From assembly GCF_014077005.1 (NCBI RefSeq), contig NZ_JACGVC010000049.1, positions 372,001-436,000 on the forward strand: a stretch of 64,000 bases of DNA, given 5' to 3'. The DNA comes from Colwellia sp. MB3u-45. Its GTDB lineage: Bacteria; Pseudomonadota; Gammaproteobacteria; Enterobacterales; Alteromonadaceae. The notes under the pieces are model-generated. The model had not been told where the DNA came from. It was given only the letters and a program-made list of their open reading frames with translations, and ran no database searches. Numbering within the stretch: position 1 is the first letter of the stretch; each line of letters starts with the position of its first letter. A program made the translations under genes and the position numbers. Below are positions 17,733 through 43,916 of the stretch, one piece after another.

Positions 17733-18592
17733 TTGGATAATCTCTAAAAAATATGTTTAAAAAACAATGTCTTTAAAGGGATATTTAAAGGTGTATTTAA
17801 AAACGAAGATAATGAGAATATACCTGAGCAAGTAACAGATGTATATAGTGTATGTAGCGCGCAAACGTCATAACCAGATCATTATAAATTCTGCCTATGA
17901 TTGATAATAATATCCCTGTAAAAATGTTAATACCATGGCAAGCATGATGGCTTTTCTCAATAGTATTAATACTAAGAAAACAACAAAGCTCATCAGCAAA
18001 TTATTGATTTAATTGCGCCTGTAACAGATTTTGTTACAGGCTCATTAACTTATACAGACAATATTGCTTCAATAGTAAAAATAACATCTTTGATGATACC
18101 GCAGCGCTAATGGATGATAAATAAATTCTCTATGGCGTTTTGTACACAAAGCAGCATAAAAGAATAACAATTTTTGTCACCATTAAAAGTCGATACAAGC
18201 ATCAATTAAGCATAATTTAGCTAGGTAAAAGGTCGTTCATCATAAAACTGCTAATGCTAATTTGTCTGCATTACTGACATTGCAGTTAAAAATTTTGCCA
18301 TATATTTTTTTTGAATTATCTATTAGCGTAAACGATGTAATGCCCTTTTATATGGAAGTCAGTATGATTTTTCGAGGTGTGTTACTAAGGCGTCTTAGTA
18401 ACACACCCTAATATACATGTGATTTAGCATTACTAGTTTCTAATGCTTTGAAAGTACCGGACATTAATGTTAATTTAATGTTACTTTTGGCGAGTGTGAT
18501 GCTTAAACGCATACATACATACATATATAAGCTGTTATGCAGAAAATTAAGATTTGGCAATAGTCGCCAACTTTACTAAAACGAGATAAATC
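17733..18592. other. Gene-free region with several inverted repeats
   Basis: 860 bases with no supported gene. It holds a palindrome TAGTATTAATACTA at 17961-17974, a 10-base inverted repeat GCCTGTAACA/TGTTACAGGC at 18017-18041, and a perfect 14-base inverted repeat at 18376-18407. A GCTGTTATGC at 18531-18540 resembles the right edge of an attC site and may mark the left end of the cassette array. Confidence 0.5.
18376..18407. repeat. Perfect 14-base inverted repeat with 4-base loop
   Basis: Arms GGTGTGTTACTAAG and CTTAGTAACACACC flank GCGT. No T-run follows on either strand, so it is not a normal intrinsic terminator. Confidence 0.7.
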
Positions 18593-19735
18593 ATGATAAA
18601 AAAGTTAGCTTTCCTTTCTTTATTCCTTATTCCACCAGTATTCGCTCAGACTACTCTAGTAGATAAGCTTAAAATCGAACAACAAGTTAAAAGCTTTATG
18701 GCTAAGGAAAATATTCCGGCAATAGCTGTTGGCATTATTCAACAAGGAAAAGTTGTGTTTACATCTGGACTAGGTGTAAGAGATAGAGAAACTAATCAAG
18801 CAATAAACTCCAAAACGTTATTTCAAATTGGCTCTCAGTCGAAAGTATTAACCAGTATTATTACATTGGAGCTCATTGATAAGGGGGAGCTTAAGCTAAC
18901 TGACCGTGTTATTGGCCTTTTACCCGATGCTTTCCCAAAAAACTCTCTGTCAAAGTTTGAATCATTAACGATTGAACATTTATTGACACATCGTTCTGGT
19001 TTACCAAATTATCCCAAAAACGTCACTAGGATTGATGGTGATGCATTTTTAGGTGGTTATGATGAACAAATGCTATTAAGTGCATTAAAAGTGATGAAAT
19101 TAAGCTTTAAAGTGAATGAAAAATGGGACTATTCAAACTTTAATTACGCCCTACTTGGATATGTCTTGAGCAAAGTGACAAATAAAAATTATGCTCAATT
19201 AGTTAAATATTATATTTCTGATAAATATGAGCTTCCAAACACACTGGTAAATTTATCTGAAAGCCAAAAGAACACTCAACAAGCTTTTCCTTACAGAAAA
19301 GATGATCGCCAAGTTCTGACTAAGCCATGGGATATGGGATTGTTAACGCCACATGGCGGTGTTTACTCAAGCATTGATGATATGGCTCATCTTATGGTGT
19401 TACAAATGAAGGCATACTCGTTATTTAGTAAAAGTGGAGAGAACTCACCGCTCGTTTCAACTCAAATAAAATATGATACGAAATTTACTCAGGGTGGAGA
19501 GAAATACCCTGGATTAAGCTATGGCCTTGGAATGTTTGAAGCAAGTAATCAGTTTCCTCTGTTTTCTGAAACAGTATTGTTTCACGGTGGCGATTTAGAT
19601 GGTTATGGCTGTGAGTATTTATTTTCTCCAGAATATGGTGTTGGAGTAGTTATGTTAACTTCAAGTGGTGGAGGTAAGTTTGTCAACTTTGGCAGACAAA
19701 TGATGAGAGAATTATTAGAGATAAGCGTTAAATAA
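18593..19735 (+). CDS. Exported serine hydrolase of the beta-lactamase class C/PBP family
   Basis: 380 residues with a signal peptide (IKKLAFLSLFLIPPVFAQ). Motifs of the family are present: SxxK as S81-Q-S-K84, YxN as Y180-S-N182, and a C-terminal HGG (LFHGGDLDG) in place of KTG. Such proteins include carboxylesterases, D-aminopeptidases and class C beta-lactamases; the substrate cannot be read here. It is the first gene of the same-strand run interspersed with attC-like sites and is followed by attC 1, so it may be a cassette gene. At 1.14 kb it is large for a cassette. Confidence 0.85.
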   Translation: MIKKLAFLSLFLIPPVFAQTTLVDKLKIEQQVKSFMAKENIPAIAVGIIQQGKVVFTSGLGVRDRETNQAINSKTLFQIGSQSKVLTSIITLELIDKGELKLTDRVIGLLPDAFPKNSLSKFESLTIEHLLTHRSGLPNYPKNVTRIDGDAFLGGYDEQMLLSALKVMKLSFKVNEKWDYSNFNYALLGYVLSKVTNKNYAQLVKYYISDKYELPNTLVNLSESQKNTQQAFPYRKDDRQVLTKPWDMGLLTPHGGVYSSIDDMAHLMVLQMKAYSLFSKSGENSPLVSTQIKYDTKFTQGGEKYPGLSYGLGMFEASNQFPLFSETVLFHGGDLDGYGCEYLFSPEYGVGVVMLTSSGGGKFVNFGRQMMRELLEISVK

Positions 19736-19830
19736 TAAAAGATTAACATTGAAAATAATTGTCTAAATAACCTCAAATATTTTCTAGCATAACGAGTTAA
19801 ATGAAAAGAAGTATTTACGTTTACTTTCTA

Positions 19831-19931
19831 CATAACAAGGTATTACAGTAAGACAAATAACAGTTGGCTGTTTGCTCCTGCGTCGCTTATTTTAGCCAAC
19901 ATAGTATTTGCCTCTCAATGAGGCGTTAGTG
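19831..19931 (+). other. Integron attC-like recombination site 1
   Basis: Left core-like CATAAC (19831-19836), internal complementary arms GTTGGCT (19863-19869) and AGCCAAC (19894-19900), and right core GGCGTTAG (19922-19929) behind GCCTCTCAATGA. The inner segment TTTGCTCCTGC and TTATTTTAGCCAACA recur nearly unchanged in site 5. Layout and length match attC sites of marine chromosomal integrons. Confidence 0.75.
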
Positions 19932-19945
19932 CACATGGAGTTTGT

Positions 19946-20221
19946 ATGTTCTCGAAAGTTTCAGTAAAAATTACCATAATCTCATGTTTAGTTTCTTTAG
20001 GTGGTTGCTCAACAACTAAGCCAACGAATGTTGCATGTGATTTTGTTGTCGGTGCAGGTGATAATGCAATCGAAAGACATGAGAATAAAAACAAGAGTGG
20101 CACTCACGGAAACAAGGTTAAAAACAATCAAAATTCAGATACTCTTGAAGGCATTTTAAATATTTTTGGTGGCATGCTTACACGAAGCTTAAACAATGAC
20201 TCAAGTAAGAAGTGCACATAA
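19946..20221 (+). CDS. Small putative lipoprotein, cassette gene
   Basis: 91 residues. A hydrophobic N-terminus ends in the lipobox LGGC (about residues 18-21), followed by STTKPTN. The mature part is short, polar and rich in N and K. It starts 15 bases after attC 1 and its TAA lies at the left edge of attC 2, the tight packing expected of an integron cassette. I do not recognise a family. Confidence 0.6.
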   Translation: MFSKVSVKITIISCLVSLGGCSTTKPTNVACDFVVGAGDNAIERHENKNKSGTHGNKVKNNQNSDTLEGILNIFGGMLTRSLNNDSSKKCT

Positions 20222-20315
20222 GCAATTCAACCGGACTAAAAACAGTGGGCTGTTCGCTTCGCTTTCATTTTAGACCACAATTTTTAGCCTATTAATGCTT
20301 AATGGGGCGTTATGT
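20216..20315 (+). other. Integron attC-like recombination site 2
   Basis: Left end ACATAAG (overlapping the previous stop codon), arms GTGGGCT and AGACCAC with one mismatch, right core GGGGCGTTATG (20304-20314). The right half TTTTTAGCCTATTAATGCTTAATGG is degenerate compared with site 1. Confidence 0.65.
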
Positions 20316-20342
20316 GTCATTCAAATATGGACGTTAAATCAA

Positions 20343-20612
20343 ATGAAAGATGATCAATTTAAAGTTTGGGAATCAACGCGAACAAAAGGGAAATTAAATT
20401 TTGTGCTATTTACCGGTGTCTTATCATGGGGCTTACCAATGTTTATTTTTATGGCTTTTATGAATAAGCCTTTTGCTGATGGCTTCACATCGAAATCCGC
20501 CATTATTCATTATATAGTTTGGCCATTAGCTGGAGTATTGTTTGGTGTATTAACTTGGTTTATGTCGGAACGAAAGTATAAAAAAGAACTAGCCAGTCGA
20601 AGTAACACTTAG
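20343..20612 (+). CDS. Small membrane protein, unknown, cassette gene
   Basis: 89 residues from the ATG at 20343 (MKDDQFKVWESTRTKGKLN). An in-frame upstream methionine codon at 20295 lies inside attC 2 and is unlikely to be used. Two hydrophobic segments (NFVLFTGVLSWGLPMFIFMA and the YIVWPLAGVLFGVLTWFM region) predict a two-helix membrane protein with a basic C-terminus. No family recognised. Only 29 bases and no attC separate it from the next gene, so the two may share one cassette. Confidence 0.6.
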   Translation: MKDDQFKVWESTRTKGKLNFVLFTGVLSWGLPMFIFMAFMNKPFADGFTSKSAIIHYIVWPLAGVLFGVLTWFMSERKYKKELASRSNT

Positions 20613-20641
20613 TATCAAGGTGCTTAAACGGATAGAGTTGA

Positions 20642-21028
20642 ATGAATCCCGATTATACGAAATATACTCTTGTAGAGTTGTACGATGTTAAAGATAACAT
20701 TGATAAAAAGTGTTATCCCGAACGATACGATTTATTATTAAATGAAATAAGAAAACGAGAAAAAAACCCTGAGAATGAACCTAAACCTCTGAAACTTATT
20801 AATAAAAAAGATAAAGCTTACCTTAAAATTTTTTTAATGTTTCTTTGTATTCCTTTTTTTTCATGGCAATTAATTAATGCATATAAATATGGAGTAATTC
20901 ATTCCAGAAATGATCATGTTTTGCATCTGAATTCAGACCCTATAGGGTTTTATGTGGTTGTTTTAATTCATGCTAGTTGTCTTGTGATAGCTTTGAGCTC
21001 TGTGTTTAAAGGCTTGAGCGCTAAGTAG
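20642..21028 (+). CDS. Membrane protein, unknown, cassette gene
   Basis: 128 residues. The N-terminal half is charged and soluble (TLVELYDVKDNIDKKCYPER), followed by two hydrophobic helices (about 62-78 and 103-122). No family recognised. It sits directly behind the 89-residue membrane protein with no recombination site between, and ends at short attC 3. The pair could act together, for instance as an envelope stress or immunity-type module, but nothing in the sequence proves this. Confidence 0.55.
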   Translation: MNPDYTKYTLVELYDVKDNIDKKCYPERYDLLLNEIRKREKNPENEPKPLKLINKKDKAYLKIFLMFLCIPFFSWQLINAYKYGVIHSRNDHVLHLNSDPIGFYVVVLIHASCLVIALSSVFKGLSAK

Positions 21029-21083
21029 TAGCTAAGAAATTAAACAGGGAAAAAAACAGTTGGCTGTAATTTAGGCGTTATAC
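21025..21083 (+). other. Short integron attC-like site 3
   Basis: About 60 bases: GTAGTAGCTAAG at the left, CAGTTGGCT in the middle and TTAGGCGTTATAC at the right. The GTTGGCT arm is present but its AGCCAAC partner is missing, so this is a short or internally deleted site. Confidence 0.55.
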
Positions 21084-21107
21084 GTATGCTATAGGAATCG
21101 AGGTTAT

Positions 21108-21572
21108 ATGAAAAAATTAAGTATATTTTTATTTGTATTTGTATTTTTATCAATGCAATCATTGGCTAATGAAGCTCCTTTGGAGGACAAAATGAAAGTT
21201 CTTGATACAGAGCTTTTTGAATTTTTTAACAACTGTCAGAGCCCTGGAGAGTTAAAAAAATATGCTAGTTATTTCTCTCCTGATGTAGAGTTTTATCACG
21301 ATAACGGTGGTGTTACTTGGGATCGGAAAAGTATGATCTCAAATACTAAAAAAAACGCATGCGGTAACTACACTCGTAAACTTGTAGCAGGTTCCTTCAA
21401 AGCCTATCCAATTAATCAGTTTGGTGCAATCACTGAAGGTGTTCACATTTTTTGTGAAACTAAAACTAAAAAATGCGAAGGAAAATCTGATTTTGTTATG
21501 GTTTGGCGTAATCTAAATAATAAATGGGAAATTACTCGAGCATTGAGTTATGGGCACCGTGAAAATAAATAA
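21108..21572 (+). CDS. Exported NTF2-like/DUF4440 protein, cassette gene
   Basis: 154 residues. A signal peptide (LSIFLFVFVFLSMQSLANEA) is followed by an NTF2-like cone-fold domain with the DUF4440 pattern: YASYFSPDVEFYHDNGG, FGAITEGVHIF and FVMVWRNLNNKWEITRALSYGHR. Such domains bind small ligands or act as hydrolases or isomerases; no catalytic assignment is possible. It lies alone between attC 3 and attC 4, so it forms one clean cassette of about 580 bases. Confidence 0.75.
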   Translation: MKKLSIFLFVFVFLSMQSLANEAPLEDKMKVLDTELFEFFNNCQSPGELKKYASYFSPDVEFYHDNGGVTWDRKSMISNTKKNACGNYTRKLVAGSFKAYPINQFGAITEGVHIFCETKTKKCEGKSDFVMVWRNLNNKWEITRALSYGHRENK

Positions 21573-21577
21573 AATAC

Positions 21578-21662
21578 GTATAACAAAATACAGCTGGCTT
21601 TTTGTTCACTACGATCACTAATATTAGCCAATTATATTATTGCCCGTTAACAGGCGTTGAGT
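21578..21662 (+). other. Integron attC-like recombination site 4
   Basis: Left core GTATAAC (21578-21584), arms around CTGGCT and AGCCAA, right core CAGGCGTTGAGT (21651-21662) behind TGCCCGTTAA. It begins five bases after the stop codon of the NTF2-like gene. Confidence 0.75.
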
Positions 21663-21669
21663 ATTACAT

Positions 21670-22221
21670 TTGAGCATTAATCTCCGACCACTAAATCAAA
21701 ATGACGATAACTACTCGAAGGTTATCGATCTGTATAAGAAAGCGTTTACCACCGCTCAACGTATTCCCACCTGGATCCTTAAATTTAAACTGAGAAAAGG
21801 TAAGGTAGGCTTTAACGTTCTTTATGCAGATGATACTTGGATAGGTCTCATTTATACCACTGAGTTTAAAGACATTATATTGGTACACTTTTTAGCTATA
21901 TCGGAATCTTTTCGCTCAGGTGGGTATGGCAGTAAAGTGATGGATTCAATGAAAGTTATGCACTCAGGAAAAAGAATTGTACTGAACATTGAGAAACTTG
22001 ATAAGCAAGAAAAAAACTTCGAACAAAGGATCAAGCGTAAAGCTTTTTATGAAAAAAACGGATTCAGTTCATCAGGGTATTTTGTGAAAGAACCAGGAGA
22101 AAAACTTGAGATGCTTATCTTTGGCGGCAGTATCAGTAAAGAAGAGATAGAAGCAATGTACAAGAATCTCTTTGGTAGCATTATTGGCTTCTTACTTAGA
22201 CCTAAAATAATAAATACATGA
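21670..22221 (+). CDS. GNAT-family N-acetyltransferase, cassette gene
   Basis: 183 residues with a TTG start at 21670, eight bases past attC 4; no better ATG exists before conserved sequence. The GNAT core is clear: VHFLAISESFRSGGYGSKVM is motif A with the R/Q-x-x-G-x-G/A acetyl-CoA loop (here RSGGYGS), followed by the FYEKNGFSSSGYF beta-bulge segment. Substrate is unknown. Acetyltransferases are among the commonest recognised integron cassette products, which fits the flanking attC sites 4 and 5. Confidence 0.8.
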   Translation: MSINLRPLNQNDDNYSKVIDLYKKAFTTAQRIPTWILKFKLRKGKVGFNVLYADDTWIGLIYTTEFKDIILVHFLAISESFRSGGYGSKVMDSMKVMHSGKRIVLNIEKLDKQEKNFEQRIKRKAFYEKNGFSSSGYFVKEPGEKLEMLIFGGSISKEEIEAMYKNLFGSIIGFLLRPKIINT

Positions 22222-22244
22222 TGCATCCCTTTGTTGCCACGTAC

Positions 22245-22343
22245 TCATAACAAGCGACCCAAGCAGGAAAAAAAACAACTGGTTTTGCTCCTGCATTGCT
22301 TATTTTAGCCAACAATTTTTTGCCTCTTAACGAGGCGCTATCG
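22245..22343 (+). other. Integron attC-like recombination site 5, altered core
   Basis: Left core TCATAACAAGCG (22245 onward), inner TTTGCTCCTGC and TTATTTTAGCCAACA shared with site 1, right end TGCCTCTTAACGAGGCGCTATC. The right core reads GCTATC where GTTATC is expected, so the crossover triplet is changed. It is the last site and ends 31 bases before the oppositely oriented glycerophosphodiesterase gene. Confidence 0.7.
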
Positions 22344-22373
22344 ATACTGGTATCACATGTAATATTGTCTTAA

Positions 22374-23063
22374 TTATAGTCTTTCTGGAAAATTACAAAA
22401 AATACCATCAATATTCAGTTTTTCCATTTCGGCAATATCATCATAATCATTAACCGTATACACATAAACTTTTAAACCGTTGTTATGGGCGTGATTGACA
22501 AAGTCCTGGTTAATAAAATCTACACTTAAATTAATCGACTGCGCATTAAGTTCAACCGCACAATCGGAATAAGAAAGTGGTATGCCGTCAAGTAAGGCAC
22601 CAATAGGTATTTGGGGAGCTAGCTGTTTAAATTTATTTAATTCATGATGGTCGAATGAAGAGACCATAAAATCAAGCGCTGACCAAGCATGTTTTTTAAT
22701 ATATTTATCTATCACTTGATACGTTGCAATCGCTGTGTTTCTGCCCTTTAGTTCTATGTTTACCATCACTCTTTTATCAACAAAGTCTAAGACCTCTTCG
22801 AGTGTTGGGATAAGTTCACCTTTACCGGCATCTAGTTGTCTTAATTCTGCAAACGTTTTATCTTGGGTATAGCCAACACCATTAGTGGTTCTGTCTACTT
22901 TATCGTCATGGATAACGACAAGCTCACCTGTCTTGCATACGTATACATCTAACTCTATCGCATCAACATTTAATTCTATTGCTTTTTTAAAAGACCTTAT
23001 GGTGTTTTCTGGCTCATGTCCCATGGCACCACGATGTCCAATTTTTAGTATTTTTTTAGCCAA
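22374..23063 (-). CDS. Glycerophosphodiester phosphodiesterase (cytoplasmic, UgpQ-like)
   Basis: 229 residues, no signal peptide. The GDPD signature is intact: IGHRGAMGHEPENT at the N-terminus, then AIELDVYVCKTGELVVIHDD with the catalytic His and acidic metal ligands. It hydrolyses glycerophosphodiesters to sn-glycerol-3-phosphate and an alcohol. Length matches bacterial cytoplasmic GDPDs. It is the last of four leftward genes, downstream of a TPR-sulfotransferase, a TonB receptor and an OPA-like transporter. That context suggests uptake and use of a phosphodiester. It abuts the right end of the cassette array tail to tail. Confidence 0.88.
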   Translation of the reverse strand: MAKKILKIGHRGAMGHEPENTIRSFKKAIELNVDAIELDVYVCKTGELVVIHDDKVDRTTNGVGYTQDKTFAELRQLDAGKGELIPTLEEVLDFVDKRVMVNIELKGRNTAIATYQVIDKYIKKHAWSALDFMVSSFDHHELNKFKQLAPQIPIGALLDGIPLSYSDCAVELNAQSINLSVDFINQDFVNHAHNNGLKVYVYTVNDYDDIAEMEKLNIDGIFCNFPERL

Positions 23064-30082: not shown

Positions 30083-30170
30083 TGGTACCCGAGGCCGGAC
30101 TTGAACCGGCACACTCTTACAAGCGAGGGATTTTAAATCCCTTGTGTCTACCAATTCCACCACTCGGGCA
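30083..30170 (-). tRNA. tRNA-Leu(UAA), copy 1 (promoter-distal)
   Basis: 88 bases including encoded CCA. Anticodon loop TTTAAAA gives UAA; long class II variable arm. Identical to the copies at 30348 and 30782. Confidence 0.95.
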
Positions 30171-30231
30171 TCGAGAGTTTTTTTTATAGTAGAGATTGGG
30201 ACCCTACTTTGACAGTAATAACTGTCATATT

Positions 30232-30307
30232 TGGAGCGGCTGACGAGACTCGAACTCGTGACATTCACGTTGGCAACGTGATGCTCTACCAGCTGAGCTA
30301 CAGCCGC
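30232..30307 (-). tRNA. tRNA-Gly(GCC), copy 1
   Basis: 76 bases with CCA. Acceptor GCGGCTG/CAGCCGC, anticodon loop TTGCCAA gives GCC. Confidence 0.95.
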
Positions 30308-30347
30308 TTCGGTATTCTACAATACATCCAACTGATATAATCAGTAA

Positions 30348-30435
30348 TGGTACCCGAGGCCGGACTTGAACCGGCACACTCTTACAAGCGAGGGATTTTA
30401 AATCCCTTGTGTCTACCAATTCCACCACTCGGGCA
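30348..30435 (-). tRNA. tRNA-Leu(UAA), copy 2
   Basis: Same sequence as copy 1, anticodon UAA, CCA encoded. Confidence 0.95.
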
Positions 30436-30496
30436 TCGAGAGTATTTTTTATAGTAGAGATTGGGACCCTACTTTGACAGTAATAACTGTCAGATT

Positions 30497-30572
30497 TGGA
30501 GCGGCTGACGAGACTCGAACTCGTGACATTCACGTTGGCAACGTGATGCTCTACCAGCTGAGCTACAGCCGC
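30497..30572 (-). tRNA. tRNA-Gly(GCC), copy 2
   Basis: Same sequence as copy 1, anticodon GCC, CCA encoded. Confidence 0.95.
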
Positions 30573-30641
30573 TTCATGGTCTTAATTTATAACCAGTAAA
30601 CTTATAACTAGCAAACTAAGATTTTTAACACGTTTAAAATT

Positions 30642-30717
30642 TGGAGCGGCTGACGAGACTCGAACTCGTGACATTCACGTTGGCAACGTGATGCTCTACC
30701 AGCTGAGCTACAGCCGC
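30642..30717 (-). tRNA. tRNA-Gly(GCC), copy 3
   Basis: Same sequence as the other Gly copies; its upstream and downstream spacers differ, so it is an older copy. Confidence 0.95.
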
Positions 30718-30781
30718 TTCATTATTTTAAACTTTCCCGTACATACGCCAATATGTATTAATTCTTACTGCACAAATGAAA

Positions 30782-30869
30782 TGGTACCCGAGGCCGGACT
30801 TGAACCGGCACACTCTTACAAGCGAGGGATTTTAAATCCCTTGTGTCTACCAATTCCACCACTCGGGCA
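30782..30869 (-). tRNA. tRNA-Leu(UAA), copy 3
   Basis: Same sequence as copies 1 and 2. It follows tRNA-Cys by three bases, as in the Escherichia coli glyW-cysT-leuZ order. Confidence 0.95.
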
Positions 30870-30872
30870 ATG

Positions 30873-30946
30873 TGGAGGCGGGTCCCGGAGTCGAACCGAG
30901 GTACACGGATTTGCAATCCGCTGCATAGCCACTCTGCCAACCCGCC
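30873..30946 (-). tRNA. tRNA-Cys(GCA)
   Basis: 74 bases with CCA. Acceptor GGCGGGT/ACCCGCC, anticodon loop TTGCAAA gives GCA. Confidence 0.95.
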
Positions 30947-31017
30947 ACTTACATTAAAACTATTTTCATTTACTACCCTTAAGGTAGTATTCCCTGTACA
31001 TTCTCTTAAAGAGAAAT

Positions 31018-31093
31018 TGGAGCGGCTGACGAGACTCGAACTCGTGACATTCACGTTGGCAACGTGATGCTCTACCAGCTGAGCTACAGCCGC
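31018..31093 (-). tRNA. tRNA-Gly(GCC), copy 4 (promoter-proximal)
   Basis: First tRNA after pgsA, position of glyW in E. coli. Anticodon GCC, CCA encoded. Confidence 0.95.
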
Positions 31094-37275: not shown

Positions 37276-37351
37276 GGACGATTAGCTCAGTTGGGAGAGC
37301 ACCGCCCTTACAAGGCGGGGGTCACTGGTTCAAGCCCAGTATCGTCCACCA
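37276..37351 (+). tRNA. tRNA-Val(UAC), copy 1
   Basis: 76 bases with CCA; GGACGAT acceptor, anticodon loop CTTACAA gives UAC. Identical to copies 2-4. Confidence 0.96.
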
Positions 37352-37430
37352 CTTCATTAGAAGTGAGGTAGACAATTTAGCGTTGGGAAAGAAATAAGGT
37401 CAACACCTTCTACTCTTTATCACCCGCGCC

Positions 37431-37462
37431 GAATCACTGGTTCAGATCAGTATCGTCCACCA
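37431..37462 (+). pseudogene. 3' fragment of tRNA-Val, remnant 1
   Basis: 32 bases covering the T-arm and acceptor 3' strand through CCA, with two substitutions. The 5' half is absent and replaced by unrelated sequence that includes CCGCGCC, shared with remnant 2. Confidence 0.8.
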
Positions 37463-37520
37463 TCTTCTCTGTTAGTACTGTATAAATATTATATTTAAAT
37501 AGTATGTGTAAATTTATATC

Positions 37521-37596
37521 GGACGATTAGCTCAGTTGGGAGAGCACCGCCCTTACAAGGCGGGGGTCACTGGTTCAAGCCCAGTATCGTCCACCA
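37521..37596 (+). tRNA. tRNA-Val(UAC), copy 2
   Basis: 76 bases with CCA, same sequence as copy 1. Confidence 0.96.
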
Positions 37597-37628
37597 CTTC
37601 TTTTACCATAAAGAAGCAAAACTAAAAT

Positions 37629-37704
37629 GGACGATTAGCTCAGTTGGGAGAGCACCGCCCTTACAAGGCGGGGGTCACTGGTTCAAGCCCAGTATCGTCC
37701 ACCA
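37629..37704 (+). tRNA. tRNA-Val(UAC), copy 3
   Basis: 76 bases with CCA. The 32-base spacers before and after it are near-identical (CTTCTTTT-CCATAAAGAAG), showing a tandem duplication. Confidence 0.96.
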
Positions 37705-37736
37705 CTTCTTTTGCCATAAAGAAGTAAAACTTAAAT

Positions 37737-37812
37737 GGACGATTAGCTCAGTTGGGAGAGCACCGCCCTTACAAGGCGGGGGTCACTGGTTCAAGCCCAG
37801 TATCGTCCACCA
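37737..37812 (+). tRNA. tRNA-Val(UAC), copy 4
   Basis: 76 bases with CCA, same sequence as copy 1. Confidence 0.96.
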
Positions 37813-43540: not shown

Positions 43541-43820
43541 TTTCGCTTAGTATGCGATTGTCGCAAGTAAGCGTGTAAACTGAACCTAGTCTGTTAAATT
43601 GACTACATAAAGTTGACTACATAAATTCCATCCTACAGGTAATATTGTGCCTATAAACGGCTTTACTCATTCAAGTACTTAGCGCAAAACGCTATAACTT
43701 AATTTTATATCTGTTGGTCGCCAAAAATTTAGCAAGCCGAACTGTATTAAACAACTGAATGCATTGATTACCTTTAAACAAGCTAAATTTTTTTGATAAC
43801 CTGAGTTAAATTACTCAAAA

Positions 43821-43854
43821 AAAAGCAATAATACCTAAGTATTATTGCTTTTAT
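43821..43854. terminator. Bidirectional terminator between the S4 gene and TonB receptor 3
   Basis: Arms AAAAGCAATAATAC and GTATTATTGCTTTT with loop CTAA: a perfect 14-base stem flanked by A and T runs between convergent genes. No gene is seen in 43541-43912. Confidence 0.85.
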
Positions 43855-43876
43855 AATAAATTGGCTATGTGCCAAT

Positions 43877-43916
43877 TTATTAGTCAGTTATTAGTCAGTT
43901 ATTAGTCAGTTATTAG
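43877..43916. repeat. 11-base tandem repeat ending at the stop codon of TonB receptor 3
   Basis: TTATTAGTCAG occurs three times plus a partial fourth copy whose TTA is the receptor's stop codon on the leftward strand. On that strand every unit carries TAA, so extra stops follow the first. Confidence 0.85.

Follow-up and report, generated by a model that had tools for sequence, protein, structure and literature searches.

An integrase-less cassette array headed by an attI-like repeat in Colwellia sp. MB3u-45, and orphan attI-like modules across the genus

An integrase-less array on a probable attI-like landing site

We analyzed a 64,000-nucleotide stretch of Colwellia sp. MB3u-45 (the window; its genome is G000 below), which carries on its forward strand an array of five gene cassettes starting at 18534|18535. 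The array directly follows a dispersed repeat that ends in an attI-like site. It is probable, in our assessment, that this is an integrase-less cassette array, a satellite on an orphan attI-like landing site, which was filled by an integron-integrase (IntI) acting in trans or formerly encoded at the locus and is now decaying. The features of the locus are as follows, all on the + strand; covariance-model scores are from searches of the whole 64 kb with two attC models (R1 and R2) described below, and ORF denotes an open reading frame.

18219..18536, +, orphan attI-like module, one copy of the dispersed repeat, with ...ATAAGCTGTT at its end (G of the core at 18534)
18535..19925, +, cassette 1, bounded by G|TT cores, serine hydrolase ORF 18593-19735 (PF00144)
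19830..19931, +, attC site 1 (R1 79.3 bits, E 1.2e-18; R2 74.2 bits)
19926..20309, +, cassette 2, bounded by G|TT cores, small lipoprotein ORF 19946-20221
20216..20316, +, attC site 2 (R1 52.8 bits, E 2e-11, match 20216-20304; R2 53.3 bits)
20310..21077, +, cassette 3, a fusion of two, ORFs 20343-20612 and 20642-21028 (membrane proteins)
20613..20641, +, 29 nt remaining at the place of the lost attC between the halves of cassette 3, from comparison with loci L267 and L266
21026..21083, +, attC site 3, truncated, second arm missing (R1 14.2 bits, E 0.62)
21078..21656, +, cassette 4, NTF2-like ORF 21108-21572 (PF14534)
21560..21662, +, attC site 4 (R1 25.0 bits, E 7e-4; R2 26.9 bits, E 1.6e-5)
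21657..22337, +, cassette 5, bounded by G|TT cores, GNAT ORF 21670-22221
22245..22343, +, attC site 5, the last of the array (R1 55.5 bits, E 3.5e-12; R2 49.9 bits)

The repeat at the head of the array, which the sequence-only reading had missed, matches dispersed copies in the window's genome and in genome G012 over 18219-18517. Eight aligned copies all reach the same core and diverge after it, five with exactly ATAAGCTGTT and three with 1-2 letters changed. Seven of the eight have a same-strand attC at most about 1.5 kb downstream; in the eighth (C49:29436) an island interrupts the core. The core TAATAAGCTGTT, adjoining intI at the point where cassettes begin, was found exactly in 10 of 17 intI-linked regions and with one letter changed in four; two others had larger core differences and none was visible in G014b. 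Because the copies share this intI-linked core and attC sites follow downstream, the comparison indicates that the repeat ends in an attI-like site, lying at the 5' end of the array and joined to it at G|TT. Two sister copies also align to the intI-linked region of G012, with 69-70% identity over 176-197 bp. The repeat has a strong internal palindrome (18376-18407) and folds as RNA better than shuffled sequences (z -3.15), a property that does not bear on attI. Short pieces of its left part (18231-18319), which at a guess from the letters might be the end of a minus-strand gene for a LuxR-type regulator, recur at several other places in the genus.

The attC sites and cassettes

Rfam recognized only transfer RNAs (tRNAs) in the window, with no match at E ≤ 1 within 17733-22400, and attC covariance models were therefore built. 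R1 was trained on 38 complete attC sites (39 were found) from loci in 10 other genomes of the genus and included no sequence of the window's genome. Because some of these loci had been fetched through their resemblance to the window, we built R2 from 17 attC sites adjoining intI in other genomes. Of the 22 pairs in the R1 consensus hairpin, 12 have both partners changed in one or more sequences. In the window, the R2 matches were the same four sites as with R1, at E 1.6e-5 or better, and the next best reached 14.0 bits. The sequence-only reading had called a cluster of attC sites lacking an integrase (CALIN), with at least three significant attC matches as its own threshold, and it passes with four; two sites with a conserved fold suffice for such a cluster.

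That reading had also listed five attC-like sites of uniform build, and here its description was too tidy. Site 2 has its right core G at 20309 and a left core AAG, not AAC; site 5 has the right core GCTATCG, with GCGCTA in place of GCGTTA. The fifth candidate, site 3, is not significant alone: it reached E 0.052 under R1 with filters off over 5.4 kb and was absent from the R2 matches over the window. Site 3 retains its right core, where cassette 4 begins, and a left arm of 35 nt that is 80% like site 2 (family D1). Since the left arm is kept and the second arm is missing, we read it as a deleted attC that has lost its middle. Elsewhere in the window, AT-rich hairpins at 43801-43907 are weak attC mimics on both strands (15.1 and 15.0 bits under R1) that outscore site 3.

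Cassette boundaries were placed as cuts at the G|TT cores. In a true cassette, the start pairs with the left core of the attC that belongs to it, and this was observed for four of the five. Cassette 1 matched its own left core at 11 of 12 positions, cassette 2 paired with one gap, cassette 4 was the reverse complement over 11 nt (11/11; inverted repeat I15), and cassette 5 paired over 6 nt only, after a 2-nt shift. Scores against the own left core were 20, 15, 22, and 12 for cassettes 1, 2, 4, and 5, vs 13, 13, 12, and 10 for the best other core. Cassette 3 is the exception, scoring 6 against the left core of site 3 and up to 16 against others, as a fusion would. The homologue of its first half (cassette 3a) lies between two attC sites in G011 (L267), so the window must have lost an attC between the two membrane-protein genes, a decayed boundary that the sequence-only reading overlooked; in G007 another homologue of this half is followed by one attC. 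The array is thus decaying, with one attC gutted, one lost, and two with altered cores.

As for the genes, the serine hydrolase fold (PF00144, 198 bits) and the DUF4440 (NTF2-like) and GNAT ORFs proposed from the sequence were above Pfam cut-offs, while the lipoprotein and the two membrane proteins had no family above cut-off in Pfam or NCBIfam. The hydrolase was not called as a resistance gene: all 25 listed of its 47 matching NCBIfam families were far below cut-offs, the best scores among the matches listed being class C (109 of 415 bits) and AmpH (85.5 of 266 bits). PADLOC gave no match at E ≤ 0.01 for the six array ORFs. Promoter-like and terminator-like sites at 17733-22400 were at chance level (21 vs 20.7 and 3 vs 2.0 in shuffles).

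Variation of the array and homologues of its cassettes

The nearest genome searched, G012 (probably Colwellia sp. MB02u-6), has the same locus at 97-98% identity. It differs by small indels and by one additional cassette, which is flanked on both sides by near-identical copies of attC site 2, one of them lacking the GTT core. The extra cassette's ORF is HAD-like by eye from its translation, and the second membrane-protein ORF is in two pieces. The content of the array therefore varies between relatives, where an unchanged block in related strains had been named beforehand as the outcome that would count against an array.

Single cassettes also recur at other places in other genomes, adjoining attC or an attI-like site. 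The cassette 1 homologue in G013 has the same start base, directly after another attC, with 86% identity over the first 1200 nt. The G010 homologue of cassette 2 (L268) ends in attC and directly follows an attI-like sequence, similar by eye to the attI beside a second G007 intI. An attC precedes the cassette 4 homologue in G013, and the cassette 5 homologue there (contig C16, L056) is 92.5% identical over positions 2-681 of 683 nt and ends in attC. No convincing attC accompanied five further GNAT homologues (70-78%), the nearby weak matches being 28.6 bits in G002, on the opposite strand, and 21.6 bits in G005, so this gene also exists outside arrays. The right flank common to G011 and G005 resumes at 22353. 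Neither genome has an empty site corresponding to the window locus, their flanks lying on different contigs (in G011, away from contig ends).

Integron-integrase genes

No intI was found in the window at E ≤ 0.001, as the sequence-only reading had stated, and intI, attI, and cassettes do not occur together at this locus as in a complete integron. Upstream of the window's module there is neither an intI remnant nor the LexA-like motif described below. The genome-wide search that the same reading had proposed adds what it had missed: the genome keeps an uninterrupted intI on another contig (C25:19545-20492, 445 bits, cut-off 265). Fragments of intI lie at C50:122656 (profile positions 1-130) and C37:60437 (12-77), and one weak match on C49 falls outside the window. 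Across the genus, 16 of the 17 genomes had an intI match at E ≤ 1e-15, and 15 had one over cut-off.

The genome holds 44 attC matches at E ≤ 0.01, three of them in the window's array. The contig with the uninterrupted intI has only one, at C25:8521, and an 8.8-kb island and an IS110-type gene lie between this attC and the attI side. This gene, an IS110-family transposase (NF033542, over cut-off; L008:8859-10121 on C25), adjoins the attC (L008:8521-8620).

Orphan attI-like modules across the genus

The exact 12-mer TAATAAGCTGTT had 118 matches in the 17 genomes, vs 47 for a reversed control. Surroundings were taken from fetched stretches for 116 matches and from 3-kb loci for two in G004; attC sites were mapped with R1 and counted with a profile hidden Markov model from the same alignment. 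Three of the 118 matches lie inside attC left ends. Among the remaining 115, four families (A-D), assigned from the 20 nt upstream of the 12-mer, take 68, and the 47 left unassigned equal the control count. Families A, B, and C also adjoin full-length intI, and family D adjoins an intI fragment. A same-strand attC lay no more than 2 kb downstream in 54/68 family members vs 3/47 of the others (Fisher p 8e-16), and none of the surveyed matches had one downstream on the opposite strand. The three cases outside the families are the far ends of islands inserted in attI.

Thirteen of the 68 modules lie within 1.5 kb of intI or of a remnant; the gene is full length in nine cases, two of which carry an internal TAG, and broken or fragmentary in four. 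The other 55 are orphans, spread over 13 of the 17 genomes: 12 in G010, nine in G005, seven in G016, four each in G000 and G001, three each in G006, G008, G012, G014, and G015, two in G009, and one each in G004 and G011. A downstream attC was found within 2 kb of 43 orphans (median distance 458 bp). Of five genomes assembled as single contigs, G010, G008, and G014 hold 18 orphans and G002 and G007 none by this motif; G010, with its 12, has one intI match. All these counts exclude the window's copy and C38:17125, neither of which has the exact 12-mer. Viral contigs gave no matches to one family A attI pattern, the only family tried.

We examined the regions up to 2.5 kb upstream (some cut by contig ends) of 59 orphans, that is, the 55 above and four further copies of the repeat. 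None had an intI match at E<1e-3, with one exception, a 27%-identical match at a distance of over 1.4 kb, which resembles some other recombinase. The left ends of family A clustered at -215 to -304 in 15/18 orphans, where the intI start is at -258, and those of family B at -197 to -293 in 10/12 (intI start -246); modules of both families are thus mostly about 200-300 bp and end near the intI start codon. The motif CTGT-N8-ACAG, which we take to be LexA-like (the LexA box of the intI promoter), was present at -185 to -208 in 12/18 A and 7/12 B orphans (19 of the 59 regions).

For 37 of 57 modules the nearest relative lies in the same genome, vs 9.3 expected (A 17/22, 5.4 expected; B 9/11, 0.9; C 11/24, 3.0). 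Such kinship fits multiplication inside genomes, or homogenization by gene conversion.

Neighboring mobile elements

In G005 (contig C3, L146:1600-2800), two modules that are 99% identical lie 717 bp apart, in tandem around one cassette. The cassette's own attC is cut after the left core by an IS110-like end, which the second module adjoins. Such ends, recognized by eye, recur beside one attI module and beside an attC that is cut. An IS110-type end was rejected as the general explanation for dispersal, since it occurred within 1 kb upstream in 2/59 orphans and 0/47 controls.

Three islands lie within the attI core, in G000 at C25:10549-19310 (L008) and C49:29436-39787 (L059, L197) and in G005 at C27:90512-100110 (L153). 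They measure 8.8, 10.4, and 9.6 kb, respectively, and the core AATAAGCTGTT is repeated at both ends. Their tyrosine integrases are related, those of C49 and G005 being 87 and 88% identical in amino acids to that of C25, and the islands occupy three different attI families. This type of genomic island appears to use the integron attI as its integration site. Downstream of one conserved gene, G010 has a family A attI (G010:1344793, L178), and G001 (contig C22, L277) and G014 (L278) have family D, which gives the impression that one platform has taken the place of another or been added to it. The window itself also contains two tRNA clusters, at 30083-31093 (4 Gly(gcc), 3 Leu(taa), and 1 Cys(gca)) and at 37276-37812 (4 Val(tac)).

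Origin of the orphan modules and of the window's array

In our reading of the window, cassettes would have entered at the orphan attI or beside the attC sites of the array, with IntI supplied in trans from the uninterrupted gene on C25 or by an integrase formerly present. A wider proposal, which we put forward tentatively and hold with less than even confidence, is a multi-platform Colwellia integron: intI-free attI modules would multiply inside genomes, each seeding and possibly driving its own array, with one IntI serving all of them in trans and the window's array as a decaying satellite. That the modules have multiplied inside genomes we consider probable; this would leave one integrase facing many landing sites, and movement of the modules as such is part of what we propose here.

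Several observations weigh against these readings. The window's attI may be dead, given a 9-nt expansion just before the core and the lack of the exact 12-mer. Its module has no direct alignment to the G012 intI-linked region at E 1e-3 and is tied to intI-linked attI only by the core and the sister copies, and we found no intI of its own subtype. The extra G012 cassette is not proof of IntI activity, since near-identical attC copies flank it and one lacks the GTT core; it may reflect RecA-dependent deletion or slippage, without IntI. Across the genus, 12/55 orphans have no attC within 2 kb. Family C left ends (24 of 26 aligned) fall at -29 to -197, short of the intI start at -344, three of 18 A and two of 12 B orphans also stop early, and the LexA-like motif is absent from all 26 C and all 3 D regions of orphans. 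Several modules have sequence in common that runs past the intI-linked reference, IS-like in places. Finally, in empty-site searches with two other orphan loci the left flanks were conserved, and none of the matches inspected showed a clean joined site.

The alternative that survives best is plain decay, in which orphan attI arrays are former complete integrons, several of them acquired over time, whose intI was deleted in place. We consider this possible, if somewhat doubtful. Broken intI do exist, on C50 and C37 in the window's genome, as remnants of 41 and 32 amino acids adjoining two G001 attI, and as a split gene in G006, and the attI families match intI types. Deletion in place sits poorly with the 59 upstream regions, which lack intI apart from the single recombinase-like match, and with A and B left ends that cluster near the start codon and are not scattered through the gene. 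Nor do independent acquisitions predict modules that are most alike within a genome, unless gene conversion has homogenized them.

It is unlikely that 18219-18536 is an unrelated small mobile repeat with an end that resembles attI, and that the array was seeded at an attG-like genomic site. The repeat is indeed dispersed, with its strong palindrome and stable fold, and the absence of an alignment at E 1e-3 between the window's copy and the intI-linked region leads us to give less weight to an orphan attI and more to this explanation. Set against it are the eight of eight aligned copies that end at the attI-like core with differing sequence after it, the similarity of the two sister copies to the G012 intI-linked region, and the restriction of attC sites to one side and one strand of the family modules. 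A normal operon with unrelated hairpins as spacers would explain why all array genes share one strand, and we regard it as already refuted by the four sites found with two training sets that exclude the window's genome, the both-side changes in the consensus pairs, the G012 cassette difference, and the cassette homologues with matching boundaries elsewhere.

Relation to known systems and significance

IntI can also insert cassettes into genomic sites (attG insertion). This likewise starts a CALIN away from intI but uses non-att sites, whereas the site here resembles a copy of attI. The array shares with CALINs in general at least two attC sites, cassettes on one strand, and the absence of a nearby intI, and differs in being headed by an attI-like module. 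According to the available part of one report, an integrase encoded elsewhere can act on CALINs in trans, and Xanthomonas is known to have CALINs at a distance from the integrase locus (PMC12444791).

The single published precedent that we found for a CALIN with its own attI is the Shewanella prophage M16-3, as described in the accessible text of PMC9892861. That is one case in a prophage, compared with 55 orphan modules of four families in 13/17 genomes here, where the LexA-like motif also occurs in 19 of the 59 regions examined. Delta-attI-type cassettes of class 1 and class 2 integrons carry a partial attI in place of attC at the cassette 3' end, mostly of 14-18 nt, alongside a complete attI1 in one case and a variant denoted -238, going by the excerpted source (PMC12901181). 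They likewise place attI away from its usual position and, in the same excerpt, were functional in recombination assays (PMC12901181); the Colwellia modules differ in reaching about 300 bp and in heading arrays at separate chromosomal places. A literature search, which left preprints and most subscription journals outside, turned up no account of orphan attI modules across a genus.

CALINs may stem from decayed integrons or from insertions away from the integrase. Outside class 1, descriptions of attI are poor and IntegronFinder 2.0 therefore does not detect it, as the available portion of its description has it (PMC9024848), which has made CALINs headed by attI hard to see. If the orphan modules are real landing sites, one Colwellia genome would hold a dozen platforms (G010, with 12) beside one integrase, and the way in which cassette capture, expression, and off-site insertion are counted would change.

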